43,696 nucleotides of DNA from Falsiroseomonas algicola. Its GTDB lineage: Bacteria > Pseudomonadota > Alphaproteobacteria > Acetobacterales > Acetobacteraceae. Numbering within the stretch: position 1 is the first letter of the stretch; every line of letters starts with the position of its first letter. Below are positions 4,752 to 40,188 of the stretch, one piece after another. The stretch lies in NCBI RefSeq assembly GCF_011040385.1, contig NZ_JAAIKB010000026.1, positions 1 to 43,696 on the forward strand, in the 5' to 3' direction. A program made the position numbers and the translations under genes. A model generated the notes under the pieces. The model ran no database searches. It was given only the letters and a program-made list of their open reading frames with translations, and had not been told where the DNA came from.

Positions 4752-5079
4752 TCCCACCGCTGCTCCAGTCGGACTTCCGGCAAACCCTCTCCACCGCTGT
4801 GCAGACCGCGCGGAAGCGCCTGTCTGGCCAGGGTTCTTGCACGAGGGTTGATGGGTCGAGGCCGGAACGAACGGCCCGAACAGCTCTCTCGACCCCGGAG
4901 ACTCTCCGGACCTTGAGGGTAGCCCGATTTACCCCACAAGCCTTACAACGTTGATCTGCCTTGGATTTGCTGCGCCGACCCACGCCGGGAGTTCGCGGTT
5001 TCCACCGCTACCCGGTCGCTACTTCGCATTTCCCGCACGCTGGACATCAGCGGCGCCGTCCCGAAAGGACACCAGCAGC
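4752..5079 (+). repeat. Dispersed repeat copy A (leader of the 58-codon gene), with three conserved hairpins
   Basis: About 330 bases match 39685-40011 closely, and the core (4765-4961) also matches 6885-7082. Three stems are conserved: GGCCG/CGGCC (4860-4864 with 4872-4876), CCGGAG/CTCCGG (4895-4900 with 4904-4909) and GGGTA/TACCC (4917-4921 with 4930-4934). A minus-strand frame is open through copies A and C, but its substitutions fall in all codon positions and often change residues, so it does not look coding. The element may be a structured RNA, a leader, or a non-autonomous mobile repeat. Nothing was recognised in 4510-4751. Confidence 0.75.
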
Positions 5080-5256
5080 ATGGCCAAGCTCCCTCCCCTC
5101 CCCGCCGCCGGCCGTGCTCCCCAGGGCGGCAACAACGCTGCCGCGGGCAAGACCAACCCGAAGGACGCCCGTGCGGGGTCGAAGAACAGCGGTGACCTCA
5201 AGCAGGGGGGCGTGAACAAGGCCATGCAGGCCAGCCGCAAGCATGGAGATCGGTAA
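5080..5256 (+). CDS. Conserved 58-residue small basic protein (paralogue of 40012-40188)
   Basis: The ATG at 5080 follows GAAAGGACACC. The product begins MAKLPPLPAAGRAPQGG, is rich in Ala, Gly, Asn and Lys, and ends in QASRKHGDR. It has no Cys, Trp, signal peptide or membrane segment and is probably disordered. The copy at 40012 has the same length and differs at only 5 residues, while about a dozen codons differ silently and the stop codons differ (TAA versus TGA). This pattern shows it is translated and under selection. Function unknown; I do not recognise a named family. The upstream 330 bases are duplicated with it. Confidence 0.75.
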   Translation: MAKLPPLPAAGRAPQGGNNAAAGKTNPKDARAGSKNSGDLKQGGVNKAMQASRKHGDR

Positions 5257-6785: not shown

Positions 6786-6884
6786 CGGCCGCTGCCCGGC
6801 GCCGCTGCCTTCCGGTTAATCGGGCATCCCAACGGCGCACAGGATCGAAGCGTCGTACTCCTCCAGCGGATGGGCCGGATCGAT

Positions 6885-7082
6885 CCAGTTGGACCTCCCA
6901 CAAACTCTCTCCACCCTTCGTCAGACCGCGCAAAGGCGCCTGTCTGCATAGGATTTTTGTATGAGGGTTGATGGGTCGGGGCCGGAACGAACGGCCCGAA
7001 CGGCTCTTCGGACGCCGGAGACTCTCCGGATCTTGAGGGTAGCCCGATTTAACCCTCAAGCTTTATAACATTGATATTGCTG
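6885..7082 (+). repeat. Dispersed repeat copy B (no small gene attached)
   Basis: It matches the core of copies A and C from CCAGTTGGACCTCC to about ACATTGAT. The three hairpins are kept: GGGCCG/CGGCCC (6979-6984 with 6992-6997), CCGGAG/CTCCGG (7015-7020 with 7024-7029) and GAGGGT/ACCCTC (7035-7040 with 7052-7057). The last stem uses a longer, shifted pairing than A and C. The similarity stops where A and C continue into the small gene. From 7083 to 7327 no gene or further repeat is seen; base composition drops in GC at the edge of the island that follows. Confidence 0.72.
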
Positions 7083-7327: not shown

Positions 7328-8383
7328 ATGTTCATCAGTGCCGACACGCTTGATGACGCTCTTCGTCAGGCATTCACCCGCCTTTTGAGCAGCAAGTCGC
7401 GCACGAGCTCGGGAAAGGGTTTGGCGCGCGAAATCGTCGGTGCGATTTTGAAGATCCGAAACCCTCGTGCTCGCTTCAGCAGAACAGAGAATCGAGCAGT
7501 CTTGTTTAGCTGCCTCGGCGAAACTCTATGGTATCTCTCCGGATCCAATTCTCTCGATCACATCACATACTACATAAAAAAATATCGGGAGCTCTCGGGG
7601 GCAAAGAAAGGCGCAAGACTCGCGAGCGGCGGTTACGGACCTCGCATTTTCGGCACCGCCAATAAAAGCCAGATGAATGCGGCCATACAGTTGATTCGAC
7701 GGAAATTGGCTGATCCGGATGGAAAATCCGATACTCGACAAGCAGTGATTCAAATTTACGATAAACTTGACCTGTTCAAAAATTCTTCAGATGTGCCCTG
7801 CACCTGTACCCTCCAGTTCCTTCCAAGGAGCGGAAGGTTGCATATGGTTGTTCACATGCGATCAAACGATGCCTACATCGGTCTGCCGCACGACGTATTC
7901 GCATTTACGTTCATGCAGGAAATCGTGGCGCGTGACGTGGGTTTAGAGCTCGGAACTTATACACACTCCGTGGGTAGCCTTCATCTCTATGATCAAGATG
8001 AACGCAGGGCGCGCGATTTCCTGGCGGAGGGTTGGCAGTCCCGGACCGAAATGCCCGCGATGCCGATCGGTGATCCATGGCCCGCTATTGACTGGTTACG
8101 AGTAAACGAAGAGGCGATCAGAAAGGGGCGCCTGTCCCCGCTTGAGGCAGATGGTGTTGATCCGTACTGGGTTGACCTGGCGCGACTTCTCCGCATTTTC
8201 GCTTTGATTAATGCAAAGAACCGTCGCGGGATCGTGGAGGAGCAGAAAGCAATGCATAGCGGCGCCTACGCTTCATTCATTCGTCGCAAGGCCCAGGCCC
8301 TAACAGCAGCTTCGGACGAGCCTCAGAAAGGCCTTCCAGGGATCATAGATGGAGGCAGCAACAAGCTGGTGGCAGTGCCGTGA
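7328..8383 (+). CDS. Thymidylate-synthase-fold enzyme, predicted dCMP (hydroxy)methylase
   Basis: The 351-residue product aligns with ThyA through most of its length. Landmarks: ETLWYLSGSNS (Glu65, equivalent to E. coli Glu58), DTRQAVIQIY (phosphate-binding Arg137), DVPCTCTLQF with the nucleophile Cys158 (ThyA Cys146), RSNDAYIGLPHD and GSLHLYDQ (His219, Tyr221). In ThyA the fourth motif reads RSCDVFLGLPFN. The Asn that reads uracil (E. coli Asn177) is Asp189 here, the same change found in T4 dCMP hydroxymethylase and in TS mutants switched to dCMP. The 85 residues after the core are extra. It is AT-richer than its neighbours (for example 7540-7600), a sign of transfer. Its stop overlaps the GTG of the next gene. 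GGAG lies 3 bases before the ATG. A housekeeping thyA is unlikely. Confidence 0.8.
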   Translation: MFISADTLDDALRQAFTRLLSSKSRTSSGKGLAREIVGAILKIRNPRARFSRTENRAVLFSCLGETLWYLSGSNSLDHITYYIKKYRELSGAKKGARLASGGYGPRIFGTANKSQMNAAIQLIRRKLADPDGKSDTRQAVIQIYDKLDLFKNSSDVPCTCTLQFLPRSGRLHMVVHMRSNDAYIGLPHDVFAFTFMQEIVARDVGLELGTYTHSVGSLHLYDQDERRARDFLAEGWQSRTEMPAMPIGDPWPAIDWLRVNEEAIRKGRLSPLEADGVDPYWVDLARLLRIFALINAKNRRGIVEEQKAMHSGAYASFIRRKAQALTAASDEPQKGLPGIIDGGSNKLVAVP

Positions 8384-9324
8384 AGCCTGGGGAGCGTCAA
8401 CGCGGTCTGCGTCTTTCAGCAGAATTGCAGAGGATTGACGCGCAAGTGCAGCAACTGCCGGGCATCCACCCGCCGGGGCACCTCGACTGCCTTGTTGAAC
8501 AGCTCGTCGAGAGCCTGCGGCGCATCGAATTTGTCCACTGGGTTCGGGACAACCTTCACGACCCGCGCCGGATGGATCCACATTCTGACTTATTTGACCC
8601 GTTGAGGGCCGCAGCTTTGCGGCTTCGGCGCGGTGAGACCGACGAGGCGTATTGGCTGACGTTCATCGCCACGCACTTTGGAAAGCATGCGCGAGATGGC
8701 TGGCGCCTGGCCCGCGACGTCTACGGCAAACTAGGCGGACCCGGATTGTGGGACTGGAAAACGATTAGCGCGAACCCCGCTGCATTCCGGGTTTGGTTAA
8801 CTGCTCACGAGAGACGCCTGTCAGGTGGTGACGGCGTCTCACGCCGGTTCAGCAATCACCGAAAGTATGAGAGCCTGAAGGCGTCGTCGGCAGCCGGAAC
8901 CGCGGCTGTGTTCGATTCCTACGTTCAGTGGGTTCGGCCACCACGCACCCACCAGGACCTGATCAGGGACGCCCACAAGCTGGTCGGACAGAATCCGAAG
9001 GAAGTCTTCAATCACCTGTATGTTCAAATGAATGCAGTCAGCCGCTTCGGCAGGCTGGGGAAGTTCGATTACCTCACGATGTTGGGTAAGCTTGGGATCG
9101 CGCCCATCGACCCAGGATCAGCCTATCTAGGTGAGGCCACTGGGCCACTGCGTGGTGCTCGGCTACTATTCACCGGTAATGCACACTCCGCACTCAGCGG
9201 GAAAATTCTCGACCAGAGCTTGCTGACCCTAGACGATCACCTGCAAGTGGGTATGCAAACGCTTGAAGATGCCATTTGTAATTGGCAAAAAAGCCCAGGG
9301 AAATTTATTTCGTTTAAGGGGTAG
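8380..9324 (+). CDS. Putative aGPT-Pplase clade-3-like protein (alpha-glutamyl/putrescinyl-thymine pyrophosphorylase family)
   Basis: The 314-residue soluble protein starts at a GTG overlapping the TGA of the TS-like gene (GTGA), indicating translational coupling. Recognisable stretches are FATHFGKH-like TFIATHFGKH (94-103), RRFSNHRKYESL (155-166), VFDSYVQWV (177-185), SRFGRLGKFDYLTMLGKLG (221-239) and ALCNWQKSP-like AICNWQKSPGKF (298-309). From memory these match the C-terminal pattern of proteins labelled alpha-glutamyl/putrescinyl thymine pyrophosphorylase clade 3, predicted to elaborate modified pyrimidines. That assignment is moderate only; no profile was run. No membrane segment or signal. 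Partnership with a nucleotide C5-modifying enzyme fits the family. Its 3' end overlaps the convergent HTH-protease gene by 11 bases. Confidence 0.6.
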   Translation: MKPGERQRGLRLSAELQRIDAQVQQLPGIHPPGHLDCLVEQLVESLRRIEFVHWVRDNLHDPRRMDPHSDLFDPLRAAALRLRRGETDEAYWLTFIATHFGKHARDGWRLARDVYGKLGGPGLWDWKTISANPAAFRVWLTAHERRLSGGDGVSRRFSNHRKYESLKASSAAGTAAVFDSYVQWVRPPRTHQDLIRDAHKLVGQNPKEVFNHLYVQMNAVSRFGRLGKFDYLTMLGKLGIAPIDPGSAYLGEATGPLRGARLLFTGNAHSALSGKILDQSLLTLDDHLQVGMQTLEDAICNWQKSPGKFISFKG

Positions 9325-10426
9325 CGCTATCGGAGAGGATTGCATCCCAAGAGTATCGCCTCTTTAGATAATTCAATCGATCCTTCCCTAAGCGATTGTG
9401 ATGCTGTAACTGGCCCACGATCATACCTGGCGCGACCTCTGCTCTCCGCGCGAAATCGAAGATGTCCTTCGGCAACGGGCGGAGCGCACGGAACTCTGTC
9501 AGGAGTGCATCGGGGATTAGCAGCCGCGCGGCGAACTCATTCGCTTCAGCCTCCTCCGGTGAGGTGACGTCGCTCCCGTCCTCCAGGAAAAGAGCGTCCT
9601 TTCCGTGCAGAAGCAGGTGACCTGCCTCATGAAAAAAGGTGAACCAAAACTGGTCGTCGGTCCGATAGCGAAAGCTCAGAACCATCAACGCCTTGTCAGG
9701 CGTCAAGAAGCGGGTTGCCCCACTCGCCGGGCAGCCGTTTGGAGTTCGGGCGACAACAACGGCAACGCCGCAATCAGCGCAGATTTTCCGCAGCTTCGGA
9801 AGGAAAACCGAGGGATCCTTGACCCACGTCATGCGCCTGATTTCGTCCAGCTTGGCGCGGAACTTCTCAGGTGCCCATGGGCGACATTCGGCGCGGCCGC
9901 TTACAATCTCTGCCCAACGGAGCCAAGTGCTGACCGCACCCGGGCGGGACTCGAACGCGGATGACATGCGAAAAGCCGCGACTGCAGCCGCACCGCCATA
10001 CTGCCGATGCCAAGCATCGACGTTCGGCACCGCGAAGAACCGGAGGCATTCCGCCAGCTTGTCAGCAAACGTCTCTGTGGCGCGGATCCATCCGAACGCA
10101 GCCATATCGCGTGTCGGTAGCCCCTGTATCCATGCCTTGTCTGCAGCCGCAGTCGCGCGAGAGCCCAGCCTGGCTACGTCGGCGCGGTACTGGGCCTCAC
10201 GGTTGATCCAGAACGTTGCGGATGGACCAAGTGCGCGCTCGAGGCGCTCCGCCAGCGGCCGATCTATTTGAACAAGCCCCCGTGCCAGTTCGTCGGCCGT
10301 AGCGACCGGCGTGCCGATACGCTCCGCAAAATCGACGAGAGATAGCGATCGATGGGCCAGCAACTCCGCGATCGTATCGCCAGGTGGCGAGACCCAGTTC
10401 GGCTCAAATGTCCCAGATTCAGGCAT
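9314..10426 (-). CDS. HTH domain / ImmA-IrrE metallopeptidase fusion (antitoxin-like)
   Basis: The 370-residue protein starts MPESGTFEPNWVSPPGDT and has an XRE-type helix-turn-helix in residues about 15-70 (TIAELLAHRSLSLVDFAERIG), the HigA/antitoxin pattern. The C-terminal half is an ImmA/IrrE-type peptidase with zinc motif FHEAGHLLLHG (HExxH at 266-270) and the downstream EEAEANEFAARLLIP containing the third ligand. Such proteins repress a toxin or regulator and cleave it or its partner on stress. The start overlaps the end of the RelE-like gene by 8 bases, so they form one operon transcribed from the toxin side. An upstream in-frame start at 10489 would overlap the toxin more and has no advantage. 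Confidence 0.88.
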   Translation of the reverse strand: MPESGTFEPNWVSPPGDTIAELLAHRSLSLVDFAERIGTPVATADELARGLVQIDRPLAERLERALGPSATFWINREAQYRADVARLGSRATAAADKAWIQGLPTRDMAAFGWIRATETFADKLAECLRFFAVPNVDAWHRQYGGAAAVAAFRMSSAFESRPGAVSTWLRWAEIVSGRAECRPWAPEKFRAKLDEIRRMTWVKDPSVFLPKLRKICADCGVAVVVARTPNGCPASGATRFLTPDKALMVLSFRYRTDDQFWFTFFHEAGHLLLHGKDALFLEDGSDVTSPEEAEANEFAARLLIPDALLTEFRALRPLPKDIFDFARRAEVAPGMIVGQLQHHNRLGKDRLNYLKRRYSWDAILSDSATP

Positions 10427-10748
10427 GGGGTACCTCGATCGACATAACCTGAACGTGGCTGACCCTTCGCCAGTCAGTCGTACCGTCACTCAACGTGGGG
10501 TTCTTCGCATGGTTGGCGCGAACGACCAGACGGTGGCCGGACGCGATCTCAATCGTCTTGGACCGACCATTGGTCCCTGGAACGTCCCGAGGGTCGCCAA
10601 GGACGAGATCGGAGAGGGAGGTCGATGCACGCAGATCGGCCAAGCGCCGCATCAGCGCCTTGGTTATCTCCGGACCGAATCTCTCCTCCATAAGCTCCTC
10701 GTTCTCGCACAGACTCCGCAGCGTCTTGGTCCGGAATGCGACCTCCAT
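10419..10748 (-). CDS. RelE/HigB-like toxin of type II toxin-antitoxin system
   Basis: The 109-residue product begins MEVAFRTKTLRSLCENEEL, the usual start of HigB-type killer proteins, followed by RRLADLRASTSLSDL and GHRLVVRANH, matching the RelE/ParE fold core. These toxins cut ribosome-bound mRNA. An ATG four codons upstream (10760) is also possible; neither has a strong Shine-Dalgarno. The downstream overlapping HTH-ImmA gene is the expected antitoxin/regulator. The 218 bases up to the next gene (10749-10966) hold no other gene and presumably the operon promoter. Confidence 0.8.
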   Translation of the reverse strand: MEVAFRTKTLRSLCENEELMEERFGPEITKALMRRLADLRASTSLSDLVLGDPRDVPGTNGRSKTIEIASGHRLVVRANHAKNPTLSDGTTDWRRVSHVQVMSIEVPHA

Positions 10749-10966
10749 GCCACTTATCATGGCAGGGGGCCATCCGAGCCAGACGGCGTGTCGGCTTGCG
10801 AGCCTAGGCGCACCGTTCGTGACCTCTCAATGGCAGGAATTGTAACATCGCCGACCGCGCGAGCCCCGCCCGCTGCGCTGCCGGTCAGGCAGCCCTTCGC
10901 AGACGGAAGCAAGCGATACAGGGGCGAATCCGGCAGAGAACCTGCGGGCCACGAGGATCGTCATCG

Positions 10967-11923
10967 TCAGATCTTGAACACCCTCATCGCCTCATCGCCG
11001 TAGTGGTTCATCACCTTCACCGCGATCCGTCCCGACTTCGGCTTAGCAAAATGGCGACTTTCCGTGCGGTAGAGGCTCGCCCAGGCGTCCTCGTCCACTT
11101 CGGCCTTCAGTGCGGTCTTCAGCTTCTCGAAGGGGTCCTTGCCGCCGAGGAAATAGGCGTGGCGGACGAAGAAGCTGTCGCCGTCATAGTCCGTGTCCAC
11201 GAACCAGCAGGCCACATCGTCCTCGACACGGCCGGAGGACCGGACCTCGCCCGTGGTGGGGTCGAAGATGTCCACGCCCTTCAGGCGCACGACGCATGCG
11301 CCATCGGCCTGGTCGAGCGCGATATCCGGCTCGCCGAACACCACGAACAGGTTGCCGCCGCCGGCCTTGTAGGCTTCGGCGGCGCGCAGCTCCTGGCTCA
11401 TGCGCGCTTTCAGCACCACCAGGCGCCCGAGGTTCATGGTGCTGTCGCCCACCTGCGGGTCGAAGGCGAAGCCGCACACGACCATGGCATCCGCCCAGTC
11501 GCGGCATTCGCGCGCGGCCTCGCGCACCAGGTCCGGGCCGACGGTGCCGTATTCGGGGCCGATGACGATGGCGGCGCGCTTCTTCACGCCGGCTTCCTCG
11601 TATTCGCCCTCGGCCGAGACGCGGCTGCCGCCAGGCCAGGGGCGCAGCGTGGCGAAGGTCAGGCGCTCATCCTTCTTCGTGTTCTGCACGCCAGCTTTCT
11701 GGAGGTTAGCCTGGGCCTTCACCTTGTGCTTCGGCGGGGGGACGGGGACGATGAATTCGCTGCGCCGCCGGCCGGAGGCCGGTGTGCCAGTGGGGATGCC
11801 GTTCTCGTCGAGCTCCCAATGGCGGGACGGTTCCGCGAAGGGGCTATTGAGAATCCGGGTGTCGATCACGGGGCCTGTCACGCCCCGAAGATGCCACGGA
11901 CTGTGCCTTCGCATAATGGCCAT
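10967..11923 (-). pseudogene. Chimeric remnant of a type III restriction-modification system (Res N-terminus joined to Mod C-terminus)
   Basis: The open frame joins two unrelated ends. The first about 60 residues (VIDTRILNSPFAEPSRHWEL, then GRRRSEFIVPVP) are the N-terminus of a BPTD_3080-type restriction subunit. From LTFATLRPWPGGSRVSAEG on, it is the C-terminal part of the adenine methyltransferase: VLKARMSQELRAAEAY, NLFVVFGEPDI, CWFVDTDYDGDSFFVRHAYF and KSGRIAVKVMNHYGDEAM. The methylase catalytic motif and helicase motifs are both absent. The frame stays open across the junction, so a product may be made, but neither normal activity can remain. Start uncertain: ATG 11923, or GTG near 11869, where homology begins. 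Confidence 0.65.
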
Positions 11924-11936
11924 GTGGCCGCGGCCG

Positions 11937-12293
11937 TTACTTTCCCGTCCGGTCATTGCCGAACAATTCGCCCTGGCTGCGCCAGCATAGGGGGAATGGT
12001 TCCAACAGGGCGGCCAGGGCGACCGAGGGCATATGCCGACCGTCCAGAGCGTTGGTTACGAGGTCGGGTGCCAGGAGGGTCAGTCGCAGCAGGCTGCCCA
12101 GGTAGCCCCGCTCGATTCGCTCGGTCTCTGCCATCTCGCTGATCGACGCGTATCGGCCCTCGTCCAACAGGCGCTGATACCGAAACCCCCTGGCCAATGC
12201 CTTCACCAGCGCCGGGTCGGCCCGCGTAGCGACCGGCGCCACGCCGTTAGTCATCGGTGTAACCACGGTCTTCCTGCCGGGGCGGTGCCGCAT
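11937..12293 (-). pseudogene. Recombinase-accessory HTH protein, second copy, frameshifted near its start
   Basis: It is a paralogue of 12923-13336, sharing ADPALVKALAR and FRYQRLLDEGRY, and then ISEMA followed by IERGYLGSLLRLTLLAP, a helix-turn-helix-like segment. The intact copy begins MSGAPYMTVRVP. Here a matching start, MSSATSITVRVP, is encoded from 12334 but in another frame, and one missing base near 12295 separates it from the rest. A shortened protein could start at the ATG at 12293. Found typically beside serine recombinases; the role is probably DNA binding or recombination directionality, which is inference. Confidence 0.6.
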
Positions 12294-12716: not shown

Positions 12717-12926
12717 TCAGTTCACGGCCGGCATGTAGTGCCTGTCCCCGATCGGCCAGCCGCCGATCTCCTCATCGACCTGCGCCGGCCCCACCCGCAG
12801 CGAGCTCCACCGATACACCCGATCCTTCGGCACATGCGGGCCGACGATGTAGACCTCGACTTCCTCGTCCGCGCAGATGCGGTGGATGAGCCCACGCTCG
12901 TCCATCGTGAAGGTGATGCGCTTCAT
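12717..12926 (-). CDS. Small conserved protein of recombinase cluster
   Basis: The 69-residue product starts MKRITFTMDERGLIHRIC and ends DRHYMPAVN, with an acidic centre (ADEEVEVYIVGPHVP). AGGAG lies 6 bases before the ATG. The ATG overlaps the TGA of the upstream HTH gene (ATGA), so translation is coupled. No catalytic motif is seen. Such small proteins commonly accompany DUF2924/recombinase operons in alphaproteobacteria. Function unknown. Confidence 0.6.
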   Translation of the reverse strand: MKRITFTMDERGLIHRICADEEVEVYIVGPHVPKDRVYRWSSLRVGPAQVDEEIGGWPIGDRHYMPAVN

Positions 12927-13336
12927 TGATGTGCTCCTTGTCGGGGTGATGGTCCTCGACCGAACAACGCTTCCTGCTCGGTCCACGATGTTGGAAACGG
13001 CTCCAGCAATCGCGGCAGGCTCAGGCTCTGCTCCTGCCCGTCCAGCAGCGCCTCCACGATCGCCGGCGCCAGGAGCGTCAGCCGCAGCAGCGAGCCCAGG
13101 TACCCCCGCTCGATCTCCTCCGCCGCCGCCATCTCGCTGATGGACCCGTAGCGCCCCTCGTCCAGCAGTCGCTGGTACCGAAACGCCCTGGCCAAGGCCT
13201 TCACCAGCGCCGGATCGGCCCTGGTGGCGGTGAGCGGCAGGGCTCCCGGCAGCACCGGCGTCACCACCGTCTTGCGCCCAGGCCGATGCCGGATGGTCAG
13301 CGGCACCCGGACCGTCATGTACGGCGCGCCGCTCAT
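12923..13336 (-). CDS. Recombinase-accessory HTH protein (intact copy)
   Basis: The 137-residue protein begins MSGAPYMTVRVPLTIRH. It has a central ISEMA/IERGYLGSLLRLTLLAP segment that reads as a helix-turn-helix, and a C-terminal LLEPFPTSWTEQEALFG. It is co-directional with the serine recombinase upstream, though a plus-strand extensin-like gene separates them. Its stop overlaps the next small gene. The paralogue at 11937-12293 is frameshifted. Proteins of this pattern follow phage-type recombinases in many alphaproteobacteria; a role in excision or regulation is inference. Confidence 0.7.
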   Translation of the reverse strand: MSGAPYMTVRVPLTIRHRPGRKTVVTPVLPGALPLTATRADPALVKALARAFRYQRLLDEGRYGSISEMAAAEEIERGYLGSLLRLTLLAPAIVEALLDGQEQSLSLPRLLEPFPTSWTEQEALFGRGPSPRQGAHQ

Positions 13337-14174: not shown

Positions 14175-15509
14175 TCATGCCGCCGCCCTCACCCTACCGA
14201 GGTCCCTGACCAGGCCGGCCAGCCCCTCCACCCGCAGCCTGATGTCAGCGCCCGCCGGCCCAACCACCACCCGGTCCACCAGTGCTCGGACCACCCGTGC
14301 CTGCTCCACCGGGAACAGCTCGCCCCACACCGGCTCCAGCCGCTCCAGCGCCTCCCGGACGTCGCGCTCCGTGATCTCCGGCGCGTCGGCCCTGGCCGCC
14401 ATCCAGGTGCCGACCACGATCTCCGGCTGCCGCAGCAGCGTCCGGACTTGGTCCACCACTGCCGTCTCGATCTGCGCCGCCGATACCCGCCGGACCAGGG
14501 CGCTGCCGGCGTCGGGCTCGGCCTTCAGCACCTGCTGCGCCACGTAGTAGCGGTAGAGCCGGCCATTCCGCCGGCAGTGCGTCGGCGACAGCGCCCGCCC
14601 ATCCAGGCCGTAGATCAGACCCTTCAGCAGCGCCGGGGCATGCTGGCGGTTCTGCGCAGCGCGTGTCCGCGGGCTGGTCTGGAGGATGGCATGCGCCCGG
14701 TCCCAAAGCGCCCGGGATACGATGGCCTCGTGCTCGCCAGGATAGACGTTGCCCTTGTGCGTGGCCTCGCCGACGTAGGTCCGGTTGTGCAGAATCTTGT
14801 AGACGTCACCCTTGTTCAGCGGCCGGCCAGATTTCGCCGTCACCGCCTCCTCCCGCAGCCGGCGCACCGTCTCCACCCCGGACCCAGTCTCGACGAAGAG
14901 CTCGAACACCCGCCGGACCCTGGCCGCCTCGGCCTGGTTCACCACCAGCTTCCTGGCCACCACGTCGTAGCCGAGCGGCACCTTGCCGCCCATCCACATG
15001 CCGCGGGCGCGGGAGGCGGCGAATTTGTCGCGGATCCGCTCGCCGATCACTTCCCGCTCGAACTGCGCGAAACTCAGCAGGATGTTTAGGGTCAGCCGGC
15101 CCATGCTGGTCGTCGTGTTGAAGCTCTGCGTGACGGACACGAAGGTCACGCCATGCGCGTCCATCACCTCCACCAGCTTCGCGAAGTCCATCAGCGACCG
15201 GGACAGCCGGTCGATCTTGTAGACCACGATGACGTCGATCAGGCCCTGCTCGATGTCGCGCAGCAGCCGCAGCAAGGCCGGCCGCTCCAGTGTGCCGCCG
15301 GAGAAGCCGCCATCGTTGTAGTGGTCCCGGACCAGCACCCAACCCTCGGCACGCTGGCTCGCGATGTACGCCTCGCAGGCATCGCGCTGGGCGTCGAGGG
15401 TGTTGAATTCCTTCTCCAACCCCTCATCCGTGGATTTCCGGGCGTAGACGGCGCAGCGACGCTTGGTGACCGTCGACGGCATGGTGTCCGGCAGCTTGCG
15501 GCGGCTCAT
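14175..15509 (-). CDS. Serine recombinase (large, phage/integrase type)
   Basis: The 444-residue protein has an N-terminal resolvase domain with nucleophile Ser26 in VYARKSTDEG, then FSGGTLERPALLRLL, YKIDRLSRSL and LLSFAQFEREVIGERIRDK. A recombinase domain follows (GGKVPLGYDV, TYVGEATHKGNVYPGEHEAI), with a C-terminal region lacking an obvious zinc ribbon. It would catalyse site-specific integration or excision. The ATG overlaps the stop of the DUF2924 gene (ATGA), so they are coupled. The start at 15509 is preferred over longer in-frame extensions that overlap DUF2924. Confidence 0.92.
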   Translation of the reverse strand: MSRRKLPDTMPSTVTKRRCAVYARKSTDEGLEKEFNTLDAQRDACEAYIASQRAEGWVLVRDHYNDGGFSGGTLERPALLRLLRDIEQGLIDVIVVYKIDRLSRSLMDFAKLVEVMDAHGVTFVSVTQSFNTTTSMGRLTLNILLSFAQFEREVIGERIRDKFAASRARGMWMGGKVPLGYDVVARKLVVNQAEAARVRRVFELFVETGSGVETVRRLREEAVTAKSGRPLNKGDVYKILHNRTYVGEATHKGNVYPGEHEAIVSRALWDRAHAILQTSPRTRAAQNRQHAPALLKGLIYGLDGRALSPTHCRRNGRLYRYYVAQQVLKAEPDAGSALVRRVSAAQIETAVVDQVRTLLRQPEIVVGTWMAARADAPEITERDVREALERLEPVWGELFPVEQARVVRALVDRVVVGPAGADIRLRVEGLAGLVRDLGRVRAAA

Positions 15510-16015
15510 ACCCCTTGCCTCCCCTTCAGACCAAAGAAGGTCCAGCCGTTCCAGCGCGTGCCGGTGATGTGCCGGGCGATGGCGGACAGCGACTGGTACG
15601 GCCGGCCCTCGTATTCGAAGTCGTCCGCCCGGACCGTGACCACGTGCTGGACGCCGGCATGCTCCCGGATGAGCCTGGTGCCCGGCAGCGGCCGGCTGTC
15701 GGCGCGGATGCGGCGGAGCACCACGTTGCCGCCATCGAGCTGCTCGCCCAGCGCCTCGAGCCGCGCCCGGGTCTCGGGCTTCAGGCCGCCATAGGCCAGC
15801 TCCTGGACACGGTAGGAAAGCCGGCTGACGAGGTACGGCCGGTTGAAGGGCGGCGGCTCCTTGCCGAACAGCGCGCGCCACTGCGCCTTCAGCTCCGCCG
15901 CCGGCGCCGTCTGGAGGGCTGCCAGGCGGCTCAGCACCTGGTCGCGGGGGATGGCGGGGATGACCGGCGTGGGTGGCGCTGCGGGCGCCTGGGTTGCCCT
16001 GGTGGGGCGCGTCAT
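15506..16015 (-). CDS. DUF2924 domain protein
   Basis: The 169-residue product has a Pro/Ala-rich N-terminal 30 residues. The DUF2924 domain follows: LKAQWRALFGKEPPP, RPYLVSRLSYRVQELAYGGL, and a C-terminal half with GTRLIREHAGVQHVV, FEYEGRPYQSLSAIAR and ITGTRWNGWTFFGL. GGAGG sits 5 bases before the ATG at 16015. This family is almost always encoded just upstream of a serine recombinase and probably assists it or binds DNA; the activity is not established to my knowledge. The 295 bases upstream to 16310 hold no gene but include an AGCGAAGT motif. Confidence 0.88.
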   Translation of the reverse strand: MTRPTRATQAPAAPPTPVIPAIPRDQVLSRLAALQTAPAAELKAQWRALFGKEPPPFNRPYLVSRLSYRVQELAYGGLKPETRARLEALGEQLDGGNVVLRRIRADSRPLPGTRLIREHAGVQHVVTVRADDFEYEGRPYQSLSAIARHITGTRWNGWTFFGLKGRQGV

Positions 16016-20277: not shown

Positions 20278-20643
20278 TGCGCCGTCACGCGCTGAACTAC
20301 GGCGCGCTACGGCAACCCGGTGGGTTAGGTGGAAGTCGGTCGGTGTTTCTAAGCAAGGCATGGAAAGTGGCAGACAGGTACATCACTATGTGTGTGTGCA
20401 TGTGTGTTGACAGTTTCATGAGTAGGGCTGGAAACACCGATCGGAATCAACCGAACCCACCGCCACGATCGCAGACACGCGCTTCACGCCGGCGACAGGC
20501 TCGGAACAGTTCTTGGTAAATTACTGCACACATCGTAGTCCTACGTATCCCATCGCAAGAACGTCGCGTTGAAGTCGTGATTCCTGCTCGTGCATTCTGT
20601 GACGCACGCGGCGCCGACCTCGCGCTGCGGCGAGAGGCGCAGG
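20278..20643 (+). other. Intergenic region with GT-rich stretch, no gene
   Basis: No supported coding frame is present. A TGTGTGTGTGCATGTGTG stretch (about 20390-20406) leads straight into TTGACA (20407-20412), a possible -35 hexamer, but no convincing -10 is visible at 17 bases. It may hold the promoter for the methyltransferase-terminase genes or an origin-like element; neither is shown. Confidence 0.4.
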
Positions 20644-21894
20644 ATGACCACGAGCCACTGTTTCCCTGCCTACAACACCGCCCGCGTCGCCGACCTGGTG
20701 CCGTATGCGAGGAACGCGCGCACGCATAGCGACGCGCAGGTGGCGCAGATTGCCGCGTCCATCCGCGAGTTTGGCTTCACCAACCCCATCCTCGTCGATG
20801 GTGAGCGCGGCGTCATCGCCGGCCACGGGCGCCTGCTGGCCGCGCGCAAGCTCGGCATGGCGGAAGTGCCGACGCTGGAGCTGGGCCACCTGAGCGCCGC
20901 ACAGCGCCGCGCCTATGTCCTCGCCGACAACCGCCTCGCGCTCTCCGCCGGCTGGGACGAGGCGATGCTGCGGCTGGAGCTGGGCGACCTTCAGGCCGAG
21001 GGCTTCGATCTAGCGCTCACCGGCTTTGACCGCGACGAGATCGTAAAGCTGCTGTTCGACGAACGCGGTGGCCTCACGGACCCCGACGCCGTGCCGCCGG
21101 TGCCCGAAGCGCCCGTCAGCCAGGCTGGCGACGTCTGGCTGCTTGGCCGGCACCGCCTCATCTGCGGCGATGCCACCAACGCCGGCACCGTGGAGCGCGT
21201 GCTCGCCGGCGTCCGTCCGCATCTCATGGTGACCGACCCGCCTTACGGCGTGGAGTACGATCCGGCCTGGCGGAATTCGGCGCTCGCCGGCAGCAAGACC
21301 GCTCGTACGGGCAAGGTACTGAACGACCACCGCGCTGACTGGCGCGAGGCCTGGGCGCTGTTCCCGGGTGATGTTGCGTATGTCTGGCACGGTGGCCTGC
21401 ACGCCACCACGGTCGCCGAGAGCCTCGTCGCCTGCGGCTTCGACATCCGGGCGCAGATCGTCTGGGCGAAGGATCGCCTGGTGCTGGGGCGCGGGCATTA
21501 TCATTGGCAACATGAACCCTGCTGGTACGCCGTCCGCGGTACCGGCCATTGGATGGGCGACCGCAAGCAGACCACGCTCTGGCAGATCGCCAGCACCGGC
21601 CAGGATGCCGAGACGGTCCATGGCACCCAGAAGCCCGTGGAGTGCAGGCGCCGGCCGATCGAGAACAACTCCAGTCCCGGCCAGGCGGTCTACGAGCCCT
21701 TCTCCGGCTCCGGCACCACGCTGATCGCCGCCGAGATGACCGGGCGCGCCTGCTACGCCGTGGAGCTCTCGCCGGCCTATGTCGATGTGGCGGTGCTGCG
21801 CTGGCAGGCCTTCGCCGGGCAGGCAGCGTTGCTCAGCGGCGACGGACGCAGCTTTGCCGAGATCGCTTCCGCCCGCGCCGCGGAAGGTACCTGA
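20644..21894 (+). CDS. ParB-like domain / DNA (N4/N6) methyltransferase fusion
   Basis: The 416-residue product starts with a ParB/Srx-like nuclease-fold domain (DLVPYARNARTHSDAQVAQI, then GFTNPILVDGERGVIAGHG, about 14-110). The methyltransferase follows, with catalytic TDPPYGV (Asp198-Tyr201) and the AdoMet motif EPFSGSGTTLIAAEM near the end. The target is adenine N6 or cytosine N4. This fusion is frequent in phage genomes, beside terminase. GGCGCAGG precedes ATG 20644; the frame from 20590 lacks support. It is followed 2 bases later by the small terminase. It probably protects or marks element DNA. Confidence 0.88.
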   Translation: MTTSHCFPAYNTARVADLVPYARNARTHSDAQVAQIAASIREFGFTNPILVDGERGVIAGHGRLLAARKLGMAEVPTLELGHLSAAQRRAYVLADNRLALSAGWDEAMLRLELGDLQAEGFDLALTGFDRDEIVKLLFDERGGLTDPDAVPPVPEAPVSQAGDVWLLGRHRLICGDATNAGTVERVLAGVRPHLMVTDPPYGVEYDPAWRNSALAGSKTARTGKVLNDHRADWREAWALFPGDVAYVWHGGLHATTVAESLVACGFDIRAQIVWAKDRLVLGRGHYHWQHEPCWYAVRGTGHWMGDRKQTTLWQIASTGQDAETVHGTQKPVECRRRPIENNSSPGQAVYEPFSGSGTTLIAAEMTGRACYAVELSPAYVDVAVLRWQAFAGQAALLSGDGRSFAEIASARAAEGT

Positions 21895-21896
21895 TC

Positions 21897-22271
21897 ATGT
21901 CCGGCACCACCTACCAGCCGACCGAGGAGCAGCGGCGCACCGTTCGGGCCATGTCGGGCTACGGCATCCCGCAGACCGACATCGCCACCATCCTCGAGAT
22001 CGACGCCAAGACACTGCGCAAGCACTTCCGGCGTGAGCTCGACCGCGGCTCCATCGAAGCCACGACCAAGGTGGCGCAGACGCTGTTCAGTATGGCCACC
22101 TCCGGTCAGAACACGGCGGCGGCGATCTTCTGGATGAAGGCCCGCGCTGGCTGGCGCGAGAAGCAGGAGATTGTCCTCTCCACCAAGCCGGTGATCGAGA
22201 TGACGGACGAGGAACTTGCGCAGGAGATCGCGCGGGAACGCACTGCGCGCCTGACGATCGATGGAGATTAG
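21897..22271 (+). CDS. Putative terminase small subunit
   Basis: This 124-residue protein has an N-terminal helix-turn-helix (EEQRRTVRAMSGYGIPQTDI, ILEIDAKTLRKHFRRELDRG), then QTLFSMATSGQNTAAAIFWMKARAGWRE, a pattern seen in small terminase-like proteins. The end is acidic (EMTDEELAQEI). It overlaps the large terminase start by 11 bases and follows the methyltransferase by 2 bases, so it belongs to one operon. Its expected role is recognition of element DNA for packaging. Confidence 0.75.
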   Translation: MSGTTYQPTEEQRRTVRAMSGYGIPQTDIATILEIDAKTLRKHFRRELDRGSIEATTKVAQTLFSMATSGQNTAAAIFWMKARAGWREKQEIVLSTKPVIEMTDEELAQEIARERTARLTIDGD

Positions 22272-23721
22272 CCCAGCCGCCCTACTCGCCCAGCGCCGCG
22301 CGCTTCGCCGGGATTTCGGCCTGTGGTGCGAGCACGCCCTGGCACCCCAGGGCTTTGTGCCGGCGGCGCATCACCGCCTGCTCATCCGAGAGCTTCAGGC
22401 GGTGGCCGATGGTCGGCAGGATCGCCTCATGGTGTTCATGCCGCCGGGGTCGGCGAAGTCCACCTACACCTCGGACCTCTTCCCCGCCTGGTTCCTGGCC
22501 CAGGGCGCCGATCGCCGCGTCATCGCCACCAGCAACACCGCCGACCTCGCCGGCGCCTTCTCCCGCCGCGTCCGGGGCCGCATCCGCAGCCATGGCCTGG
22601 CGCTGGGCTACAGGCTGGAGCGCGAGGCCGAGGACCTCTGGACCACGACGAATGGCGGCGAGTACCGCGCTGCCGGCATCGGCGGGGTCATCACCGGCCT
22701 GCGTGCCGACCTGGCGCTGATCGATGATCCCGTGAAGTCGCGCGAGGAGGCGGACAGCGAGGTCCGACGGAACCGGGTCTGGGAATGGTTCCAGGATGAC
22801 CTCCGCACGCGGCTGAAGCCTGGCGCATCCATCGTCGTGGTGCAGACGCGCTGGCATGAGGACGACCTGGCAGGCCGGCTGCTGGAAGCGCAGCGCGGCC
22901 AGTGGCGCGTGGTGTCGCTGCCGGCGGAAGCCGAGGCCGACGACCCGCTGGGCCGGGCGCCCGGCGAGATGCTCTGGGGCGATGACGGGTACGGCTATGC
23001 CGCCTCGCTCGCCCGTGTGAAGGCCGAGGCGAGCACGCGCAGCTGGTCCGCGCTCTACCAGCAGCAGCCCGTGCCCGACACTGGCGACTACTTCCGGCGG
23101 GAATGGCTGCAACTGGCGGACCAGCTGCCGGACCAGGCCACGATGCGGATCTACGGCGCCTCGGATTACGCGGTCACGGCGAATGGCGGCGACTACACCG
23201 TCCACGTCGTGGTCGGCATGGACCCGCAGGGGCGGCTCTGGTTGCTGGACCTCTGGCGCGGCCAGGCGGCGTCCGACATCTGGATCGAGGCCTTCTGCGA
23301 TCTCGTGCGGCAGTGGCGTCCGATCGGCTGGGCGGAGGAGACGGGGCAGATCCGCGCCGGCATCGGGCCCTTCCTCGGGCGCCGCATGAGGGAGCGGCAG
23401 GCCTATGTCGCACGCCAGGCTTTCCCGACCCGCGGCGACAAGGCGGTGCGGGCGCAGTCAATCCGAGGCCGCATGGCGCTGGAGGGGCTGCACGTGCTGC
23501 GGCAGGCGCCGTGGCGGCAGGCCTTCGAGGCGGAGCTGCTGACCTTCCCTGCCGGCAAGCACGACGATCAGGTCGATGCGCTCGGCCTGGTCGGACAGCT
23601 GCTGGATCGGATGGTATCGGGCCGGACGCCGCGGCACGAGAAGGTGGTACCGATCGACCGATGGGCGCGGGCCTTCGATCGGGATCGCGATGGATCAGTC
23701 AGCGGCTGGAAGGTCGCGTGA
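22261..23721 (+). CDS. Phage terminase large subunit
   Basis: The 486-residue protein has the packaging ATPase in its N-terminal half: MPPGSAKSTYTS as Walker A (61-70), ATSNTADLAGAFSRRVRGR, LALIDDPVKSREEA as Walker B, and VVVQTRWHEDDLAGRL as coupling motif. The RNase H-like nuclease is in the C-terminal half, with Asp in YGASDYAV, WAEETGQI and AGKHDDQVDALGL. Length is normal and all key residues are present, so it should be active. It ends the module; where a portal gene is expected there is a perfect hairpin and then a minus-strand gene. Confidence 0.92.
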   Translation: MEISPAALLAQRRALRRDFGLWCEHALAPQGFVPAAHHRLLIRELQAVADGRQDRLMVFMPPGSAKSTYTSDLFPAWFLAQGADRRVIATSNTADLAGAFSRRVRGRIRSHGLALGYRLEREAEDLWTTTNGGEYRAAGIGGVITGLRADLALIDDPVKSREEADSEVRRNRVWEWFQDDLRTRLKPGASIVVVQTRWHEDDLAGRLLEAQRGQWRVVSLPAEAEADDPLGRAPGEMLWGDDGYGYAASLARVKAEASTRSWSALYQQQPVPDTGDYFRREWLQLADQLPDQATMRIYGASDYAVTANGGDYTVHVVVGMDPQGRLWLLDLWRGQAASDIWIEAFCDLVRQWRPIGWAEETGQIRAGIGPFLGRRMRERQAYVARQAFPTRGDKAVRAQSIRGRMALEGLHVLRQAPWRQAFEAELLTFPAGKHDDQVDALGLVGQLLDRMVSGRTPRHEKVVPIDRWARAFDRDRDGSVSGWKVA

Positions 23722-25241: not shown

Positions 25242-25940
25242 CTATGCGCCGCCGCTCCGCGCCATCACCCGCGCCACCGTCGTATGAGTCCAGGCACCCC
25301 TGCCCTGCGGCGTCGGCACCCCGCGCTCATTCAGCGCCCGCGCCATCGCCGCCTGACCCTCGACGCCCTCGGCCCGCAGCCGCTCCACCTCTAGCACCAG
25401 CCGATGCGCCGCCCGTTCTGCCGTCTCTCGCCGCGCCAGGGCGGCCGCAGCGGCGTCGGGTCCGGCAGCTGGCCGGTAGCCCCGGTCGCCGCCTAGCAGC
25501 CGCCCACGGGCCTTGGCGGCGGCCAGAGCGGCCCTGGTCCGCTCGGCGATCAGCTCCCGCTCCTTCTGCGCCATTGCCGCATACACCCGCATCATCAGGT
25601 CGTCCGCGCCCGGCATGTCTGCCGCCCGGATTGAGACGCCGTCCTCCAGCAGCTGCGACAGCGTATGGGCGCGGCGGGTGATCCGATCGAGCCGCGCCGC
25701 CACCAGCACTGCGCCAAGCTGCCGGCACCGCGTCAGTGCCGCCTGGAAGCCCGGCCGGCGGTCGTCCTTGCCGCTGGCGATGTCGGAATACTCGGCGACC
25801 AGGAACCAGCCCTGGCTCGCCGCGAAGGCGCGGACGGAGGCGGCCTGCGCCTCCAGCCCGAGCCCACTCTGCCCCTGCTCAGCGGTAGAGACCCGGTAGA
25901 GCCCGACCGCGTAGCGCGGCGCCGCAGCACCAGGCCGCAT
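25242..25940 (-). CDS. Serine resolvase/invertase family recombinase
   Basis: The 232-residue protein has the resolvase catalytic domain with Ser18 in VGLYRVSTAEQGQSG, then ASGKDDRRPGFQ, VAARLDRITRR, YAAMAQKERELIAERTRAAL and KARGRLLGG. A C-terminal helix-turn-helix segment (ALNERGVPTPQGRGAWTHTT) follows. The size is that of resolvases rather than large integrases. The ATG overlaps the stop of the DUF3489 gene by one base, so they are coupled. It is the second, unrelated serine recombinase of the region (the other is at 14175-15509). Confidence 0.92.
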   Translation of the reverse strand: MRPGAAAPRYAVGLYRVSTAEQGQSGLGLEAQAASVRAFAASQGWFLVAEYSDIASGKDDRRPGFQAALTRCRQLGAVLVAARLDRITRRAHTLSQLLEDGVSIRAADMPGADDLMMRVYAAMAQKERELIAERTRAALAAAKARGRLLGGDRGYRPAAGPDAAAAALARRETAERAAHRLVLEVERLRAEGVEGQAAMARALNERGVPTPQGRGAWTHTTVARVMARSGGA

Positions 25941-39684: not shown

Positions 39685-40011
39685 TCCACCGCTGCTCCAG
39701 TCGGACTTCCCGCAAACCCTCTCCACCACTGTGCAGACCGCGTAGAAACGCCCGTCTCGCCACGGTTTTGGCGCTAGGGTTGATGGATCGAGGCCGGAAC
39801 GAACGGCCCTAACAGCTCTCTGGACGCCGGGGACTCTCTGGACCTTGAGGGTAGCCCGATCTACCCCACAAGCCTTACAACGTTGATCTGCCTTAGCTTT
39901 GCTGCGTCGACCCACGCCGGGATTCTGCGGTTTCCACCGCTACCCGGTCGCTACTTCGCATTTACCGCACGCCGGACGCCGGCGGCGCCGTCCCGAAAGG
40001 ACACCAGCAGC
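39685..40011 (+). repeat. Dispersed repeat copy C (leader of the second 58-codon gene)
   Basis: It matches copy A (4752-5079) over its whole length and copy B over the core (39697-39895). Hairpins: GGCCG/CGGCC (39792-39796 with 39804-39808), CCGGGG/CTCTGG (39827-39832 with 39836-39841) and GGGTA/TACCC (39849-39853 with 39862-39866). In the second stem both changes relative to A and B give G-U pairs in plus-strand RNA, so pairing is kept in that strand but not in the complement. Confidence 0.75.
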
Positions 40012-40188
40012 ATGGCCAAGCTCCCTCCCCTCCCCGCCGCCGGCCGTGCGCCCCAGGGCGGCAACAACGCCGCCCCCGGCAAGGCCAACCCCAAGGACGC
40101 CCGCGCGGGCTCCAGGAACAGCGGTGACCTGAAGCACGGCGGCGTCAACAAGGCGACCCAGGCCAGCCGCAAGCACGGCGATCGGTGA
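40012..40188 (+). CDS. Conserved 58-residue small basic protein (paralogue of 5080-5256)
   Basis: It has the same start context (GAAAGGACACCAGCAGC before ATG) and length as the copy at 5080. It begins MAKLPPLPAAGRAPQGG and ends TQASRKHGDR. Residue changes relative to the other copy are Ala22Pro, Thr25Ala, Lys35Arg, Gln42His and Met49Thr; most other differences are third-base. Net charge is strongly positive, so RNA or DNA contact is conceivable. Function unknown. It is not part of an evident operon. Confidence 0.75.
   Translation: MAKLPPLPAAGRAPQGGNNAAPGKANPKDARAGSRNSGDLKHGGVNKATQASRKHGDR

Follow-up and report, generated by a model that had tools for sequence, protein, structure and literature searches.

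We identified a conserved module of four genes in a stretch of DNA from Falsiroseomonas algicola (contig NZ_JAAIKB010000026.1; 43,696 nucleotides, hereafter the window). A thymidylate synthase (TS)-fold enzyme and a protein of aGPT-Pplase clade 3 (aGPT3) are encoded one after the other. They are followed on the opposite strand by a fusion of a HigA-type helix-turn-helix (HTH) domain with an ImmA/IrrE peptidase, and then by a small, possibly HigB-like gene (TS > aGPT3 > < HTH-ImmA/IrrE < small gene). We tentatively interpret this module as a mobile cytosine-nucleotide modification unit coupled to a pair of the abortive-infection type. The first-pass annotation, made from the sequence and its open reading frames (ORFs), had described only the two enzymes as a unit, proposing that they make and process a modified cytosine nucleotide next to a toxin-antitoxin (TA) and restriction-modification (R-M) debris. 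The enzyme families proved right and both neighbouring features are real, but the unit has four genes instead of two: the TA-like pair belongs to the module and is conserved with it, and is not a mere neighbour. The four genes are the following.

7328..8383, forward strand: ORF1, TS-fold pyrimidine nucleotide hydroxymethylase-like protein of 351 amino acids, with deoxycytidine monophosphate (dCMP) as predicted substrate (PF00303, MilA match, residues, tree)
8380..9324, forward strand: ORF2, aGPT-Pplase clade 3 / amino acid:DNA transferase-like protein of 314 amino acids, GTG start (PF18746, PF18724)
9314..10489, reverse strand: HigA-type HTH fused to an ImmA/IrrE (M78) zinc peptidase, 391 amino acids as listed (PF06114, PD-Lambda-2_B, synteny)
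10419..10760, reverse strand: small protein of 113 amino acids, possibly HigB/RelE-like (phrog_3066, recurrence, predicted model)

ORF1 and ORF2 overlap by four bases (GTGA, 8380-8383), as had been annotated. The HTH-peptidase gene is convergent with this pair, and its start is probably nearer 10426, judging from its homologues. The small gene lies upstream of the HTH-peptidase gene and overlaps it.

We assessed the linkage of these genes in 80 loci, obtained by scanning for ORF2 with one genome per species. Partners were scored with profiles of the window's own families, and a locus was considered to have room for a partner when it included a 1.5 kb flank on that side. The TS gene was found upstream of aGPT3 in 75 of the 76 genome loci with such a flank (L022 being counted as TS-positive), the locus without it (L053) coming from a metagenome-assembled genome of Bacteroidetes. 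The HTH-peptidase gene was found downstream of aGPT3 in 73 of the 75 genome loci with room, and it was on the opposite strand in all of these except L015. It was missing at L053 and L078, whose aGPT3 genes possibly belong to a different system or have distant partners that were missed. The small gene was adjacent in 73/73 genome loci with a peptidase gene and room, using a profile that was itself built from most of these sequences. In an all-against-all comparison, an ORF related to the small gene of the window was present in 78 of 86 loci from plasmids and genomes. The same gene order was present in the six plasmid regions that we opened, among eight records found (in L002 the TS is taken from the annotation). 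Viral contigs gave 26 loci in 25 contigs when searched with ORF2, with the TS in 21/21 and the peptidase gene in 23/23 of those with room. One of these contigs, IMGVR_UViG_3300025711_000239 (118.6 kb), holds two separate aGPT3 loci (L103 and L104).

The association also holds when the search starts from the other enzyme. The TS profile matched 42 loci in viral contigs, of which eight were members of the module clade (at least 46% identity); one of these is identical to the TS of the window, and two are near-copies of each other. All eight have the aGPT3 and peptidase genes, and seven have the small gene, the eighth being at a contig end. None of the other 34 TS-like proteins had aGPT3, the peptidase or the small gene in a flank of up to 5 kb. 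The pairing of the two enzymes had been made to depend on their co-occurrence elsewhere, which is what both searches found. Furthermore, the three large proteins show co-variation of their distances across 79 loci (r = 0.88-0.91), the best of 500 permutations reaching 0.14.

This strict association bears on whether the HigB-like/HTH-ImmA pair is a mere addiction module, or a regulator, that stabilises a modification operon used for housekeeping or for self-marking of a mobile element. TA pairs are frequent passengers of mobile DNA, and the module or parts of it are carried by the six plasmid copies opened and by 25 contigs classed as viral. Yet, conservation of the TA half is about as strict as that of the enzymes, with which it co-varies, whereas we would expect addiction genes to be swapped more often. 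An operator shared by the promoters of the TS and of the small gene was not found either: a common 10-mer was present in 9 of 75 loci, against 9-18 in 20 shuffles, and there is therefore no support for a common operator. We regard the addiction explanation as improbable.

The first enzyme, ORF1, matches PF00303 (E = 2.4e-18) and carries the catalytic Cys158. Its best match in the PDB is MilA (5b6d), a cytidine monophosphate (CMP) 5-hydroxymethylase (E = 3.7e-44), the best thymidylate synthase scoring only E = 7.8e-14. The first-pass annotation had noticed an LPHD motif in this ThyA-like protein, placing Asp189 at the position of the base-reading Asn. The motif is indeed present, and in a MAFFT sequence alignment Asp189 falls in the column of Asn177 of thymidylate synthase, Asp179 of T4 gp42 and Asp186 of MilA. 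The same alignment gives ORF1 Ser179 and Arg137, i.e., the deoxy-type pair of T4 gp42 (Ser169/Arg123), where MilA has Ala176/Lys133. Three residues before the catalytic Cys, ORF1 has an acid (Asp155), as does T4 gp42 (Asp145), at a site occupied by Leu in thymidylate synthase. ORF1 thus has neither the uracil-reading Asn (Asn177 in the Escherichia coli enzyme) nor the Leu of ThyA, and neither the Ala nor the Lys typical of MilA.

The role of these residues is known from related enzymes. The excerpted text of PMC5175136 reports that Asp186 of MilA accompanies cytosine substrates, that Ala176 and Lys133 confer its preference for ribose, and that the A176S/K133R double mutant lost the use of CMP while that of dCMP was slightly affected. 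For T4 dCMP hydroxymethylase, the excerpt of PMC6400193 describes a hydroxymethylation signature of three residues: an acid at the third position before the catalytic Cys, a Ser, and a Tyr located two residues after this Ser. ORF1 has the Tyr (Tyr103) and a Gly (Gly101) where T4 has Ser94, i.e., the Ser/Thr two residues before the Tyr. This column is not secure, because our two alignments place different residues of MilA in it, Thr and Gly, respectively. We predict that ORF1 uses dCMP and hydroxymethylates it because of Asp189, Ser179, Arg137 and the acid before the Cys. This agrees with the dCMP-type specificity proposed initially, and the residues make it likely that ORF1 converts dCMP to 5-hydroxymethyl-dCMP.

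These residues are conserved among 108 TS-like ORFs, which are the best per fetched locus, window included, with near-identical and viral-contig copies among them. Cys158, Ser179, Tyr103, His219 and Tyr221 were found in all 108, and Asp189 in all except the broken copy of L011. Position 137 is Arg in 90 and Lys in 18. The acid three residues before the Cys is present in 100 (51 Glu, 49 Asp). Gly101 is present in 103, and a Gly is also found in 17 of the 20 phage TS-like proteins that we included in a phylogeny. This tree was built from a selected subset of 48 rows. Its 24 module TS form one clade (support 97/92) with MilA as its sister (87/85); the 20 phage rows are outside, and the deeper joins, with their long branches, are unsure. 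ORF1 therefore shares with T4 gp42 and its phage relatives the Cys, the cytosine-reading Asp, the deoxy-type pair and the acid, but differs from them in being cellular, in forming its own clade with a Gly at the Ser94 site, in being alignable with MilA to residue 287, and in its linkage to aGPT3 and the TA-like pair.

Two other assignments of ORF1 can be weighed with these data. That MilA is the closest solved relative, shares the equivalent of Asp189 and is sister to the module clade would suit a MilA-type pathway for a nucleoside natural product, one of the outcomes suggested at first. However, ORF1 has the dCMP-type Ser179/Arg137 instead of the ribose-preferring Ala/Lys pair of the CMP hydroxymethylases MilA and BcmA, we saw no nucleoside cluster, and the gene clusters listed included no biosynthetic genes recurring as neighbours. 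This makes such a pathway very improbable. An ordinary thymidylate synthase lying beside an unrelated gene is what public records would suggest, since they annotate thymidylate synthase. The host encodes one ThyX and no further PF00303 protein, so ORF1 is probably not its source of thymidylate. Together with the Asp for Asn at the base-reading site, the acid for Leu and the strict linkage to the other genes, this leaves the ordinary enzyme a negligible probability.

The second enzyme, ORF2, is matched by two Pfam families well above their cut-offs: aGPT-Pplase3 (PF18746, E = 1.5e-106, 356.3 bits for a cut-off of 25) and amino acid:DNA transferase (PF18724, E = 2.4e-73, 247.1 bits for a cut-off of 26.2). 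This upholds the initial assignment to aGPT-Pplase clade 3, a clade reportedly defined in Iyer 2013, and both motifs on which the assignment relied, SRFGRLGKFDYLTML and CNWQKSP, are present in the sequence. Sequence searches of the PDB gave no convincing relative of ORF2. Its predicted model (predicted local distance difference test, pLDDT, 97) has the phage 5-PmdU glycinyltransferase PUGT as top fold match, followed by helix-hairpin-helix (HhH) DNA glycosylases and a nucleotide salvage enzyme. Foldseek gave PUGT probabilities of 0.82 and 0.63, the other 48 matches listed being below 0.1, and VIA also ranks PUGT at the top. ORF2 thus resembles the phage amino acid:DNA transferases in two ways: it shares PF18724 with gp51 of phage M6, with which the FG...F and E...C.W motifs align, and its modelled fold is similar to that of PUGT of PaMx11. 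On the other hand, our own profile of the ORF2 family (A3) had no significant match among ten proteins of phage M6, gp51 included, using HMMER and HHalign.

The phage transferases also differ from ORF2 in their context. In phages M6, ViI and phi W-14 the modified base is 5-hydroxymethyldeoxyuridine (5hmdU) in DNA, which is activated by a kinase. We found no 5hmdU DNA kinase (PF18748) in 25 module-bearing genomes (the window's own and those of 24 of the 80 loci), some of which may be incomplete assemblies; the same search detected the kinase of phage M6. This weighs against simple DNA hypermodification in the style of phages, another of the early proposals.

Given the two families and the fold, it seems evenly balanced whether ORF2 is a transferase that couples an amine or an amino acid. 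An N-glycosidase releasing a base would have a different task. It would either detach 5-hydroxymethylcytosine from its nucleotide, a role played by MilB in the case of MilA, or excise modified cytosine from the DNA of invading phages, as does Brig1, and the TS-fold enzyme would make or mimic its substrate. Yet, the best fold match is a transferase and PF18724 covers ORF2. Moreover, an acid is found in just 33 of 55 sequences in the column of D244, which we assume from a motif to be that of the catalytic Asp of HhH-GPD. We therefore consider a glycosidase unlikely, although less so than the addiction explanation.

The other half of the module resembles a known defence system. The HTH-peptidase matches PF06114 (E = 6.9e-10) and the structures of HigA and IrrE, and its HExxH motif is intact in 79/79 homologues. 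Its best match among the PADLOC models is PD-Lambda-2_B (PDLC03982, E = 1.6e-21). The small protein matches phrog_3066, annotated as "toxin of TA system" (E = 3.5e-5). Its predicted model (pLDDT 86.7) consists of a strand, three helices and three strands, an order that seems compatible with HigB/RelE. No Pfam, NCBIfam or PDB sequence match confirmed the likeness to HigB/RelE: a scan of 57 small proteins with NCBIfam and Pfam gave only scattered single or double matches, the best having E-values of 0.039 and 0.0031, respectively. PADLOC models did not match the small protein.

As described in the excerpt of PMC9519451, PD-lambda-2 has three components: A is HigB-like, B combines a HigA-like HTH with a peptidase, and C is needed for defence. 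The system acts by abortive infection, and component B alone was toxic and was rescued by A. Our module resembles it in having a homologue of component B with a small TA-like gene upstream. It differs in the lack of a PADLOC match for the small gene and in the two nucleotide enzymes convergent with the pair. The two enzymes, considered as candidates for component C, had no PADLOC match.

We favour a modification unit coupled to an abortive-infection-type pair. PD-lambda-2, with its HigB-like and Xre-peptidase parts, is a proven abortive-infection system. The four genes would travel horizontally as one module. The TS-fold enzyme would use methylene-tetrahydrofolate to convert dCMP to 5-hydroxymethyl-dCMP, as its residues suggest. 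The aGPT3/ADDT-like enzyme, a relative of phage enzymes that join glycine to an activated 5-methyl carbon, would then act on hydroxymethyl-cytosine without the activating kinase of phages, most likely by coupling an amine or an amino acid, at the level of the nucleotide or of DNA, to judge from its family and fold. By analogy with PD-lambda-2, the HigB-like/HTH-ImmA-IrrE pair may be the sensor or the toxic arm. The pair would be set free by infection, or when the modified product is interfered with, and growth would stop. The arguments for and against a role in defence, with the TA-like arm triggered in infection, seem to us of equal weight. A more specific version is rather doubtful: an immune module in which a kinase-independent transferase of glycosylase fold hypermodifies cytosine, and the product is read by, or guards, the HigB/HTH-ImmA pair, with no restriction enzyme. 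The literature that we searched, which did not extend to Iyer 2013 and Burroughs 2015, had no description of the four-gene arrangement. In the excerpt of PMC13092281, DefensePredictor lists aGPT-Pplase as a domain of a predicted, unvalidated defence system; a different system, one that includes a TS domain, was validated there.

The distribution of the module suggests mobility. By record titles, the 80 loci come from Pseudomonadota (by far the most), Myxococcota, Acidobacteriota, Gemmatimonadota, Planctomycetota (on a contig that ends before the expected position of the peptidase gene), Actinomycetota and Bacteroidota. The module was absent from 58 relatives of the host, including 14 congeners, and from 384 other genomes drawn from its class. 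Pseudoroseomonas cervicalis (L008) has a copy at 97%, and less similar copies occur in Roseicella (L009) and on a plasmid of Roseomonas gilardii. The lower-GC island reported at first is evident: the kilobases from 7 to 10 kb have 53, 60 and 57% GC, the other full kilobases of the window having 62.5-73%. Third-position GC is 0.58-0.73 in the four genes and mostly 0.7-0.9 in the ORFs around them. The module is a rare, patchy and probably mobile cassette. We found no tRNA that could serve as insertion site in the window, and an Rfam scan of 4.5-12.5 kb gave no RNA element up to E = 0.5.

This mobility raises the question of whether the module is prophage cargo, or the remnant of a phage DNA-hypermodification operon. 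Downstream of the module, the window includes genes for a terminase, a ParB-methylase and resolvases, and the IMG/VR viral contig L116, which carries the identical TS gene, starts at the first base of that gene. Against this, a tblastn search of 50,697 phage records with ORF2 gave no match at E = 1e-3, the module TS clade stands apart from phage TS in the tree, and frames look interrupted in only two of the 80 genome loci (L011, where the TS and aGPT3 hits are split, and L037, where the TS is split). A phage origin of this kind is accordingly quite improbable, more so than addiction. Enzymes for hypermodified bases are mainly known from phages, where they serve the evasion of restriction. Here, bacteria of several phyla maintain a related enzyme pair on their plasmids and chromosomes, in strict linkage with a TA-like pair. 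If our interpretation is true, the module would connect nucleotide chemistry with abortive infection in a new way, would give a function to PF18746, and would perhaps lead to a modified cytosine not seen before. The four genes form a short set that can be cloned in one piece.

Some loci have accessory genes. In 23 loci (e.g., L056:10422-10799), a MazG-like small protein is encoded on the far side of the small HigB-like gene. The one member scanned with Pfam reached 21.5 bits for MazG, with a cut-off of 22, and the two members compared with PHROGs matched two families, both of unknown function, with E-values no higher than 1e-47. The likeness to MazG points to a putative role in nucleotide metabolism. 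DUF4031 is found in nine loci, mostly before the TS (E = 2.9e-26 in the one member scanned by Pfam). A family of 268 amino acids occurs in ten loci, mostly between TS and aGPT3 (e.g., L021:7219-8004 and L015:7204-8004), with well-kept motifs GLNPSNREFVD and NHNIQSSFGV. It has no convincing PDB relative by sequence; the GLNPS motif recalls, in our view, enzymes similar to uracil-DNA glycosylase, a likeness that no tool confirmed. PADLOC had no match for nine accessory and small proteins.

The R-M debris lies next to the module on the reverse strand (10967-11956, 329 amino acids). Residues 32-94 of this ORF match positions 2-63 of the 970 of a BPTD_3080-type restriction enzyme, and residues 83-329 match the C-terminal end (720-983 of 983) of a type III methyltransferase model. 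The ORF is apparently what remains of a large gene of R-M type after its middle was lost and both ends were kept. Two small ORFs further on (11937-12293, with no Pfam match, and 12923-13336, reverse strand) are alike, through a 174-nucleotide repeat of 82% identity near a recombinase gene. The mobile-element genes downstream encode serine recombinases (14175-15881 and 25242-25940), a ParB/DNA methylase (20590-21894) and a terminase large subunit (22261-23721). On the other side, a 192-nucleotide direct repeat (83%; 4764-4955 and 6884-7075) flanks a Na/H exchanger gene just before the island, and the ORF at 4951-5256 resembles the one at 39883-40188.

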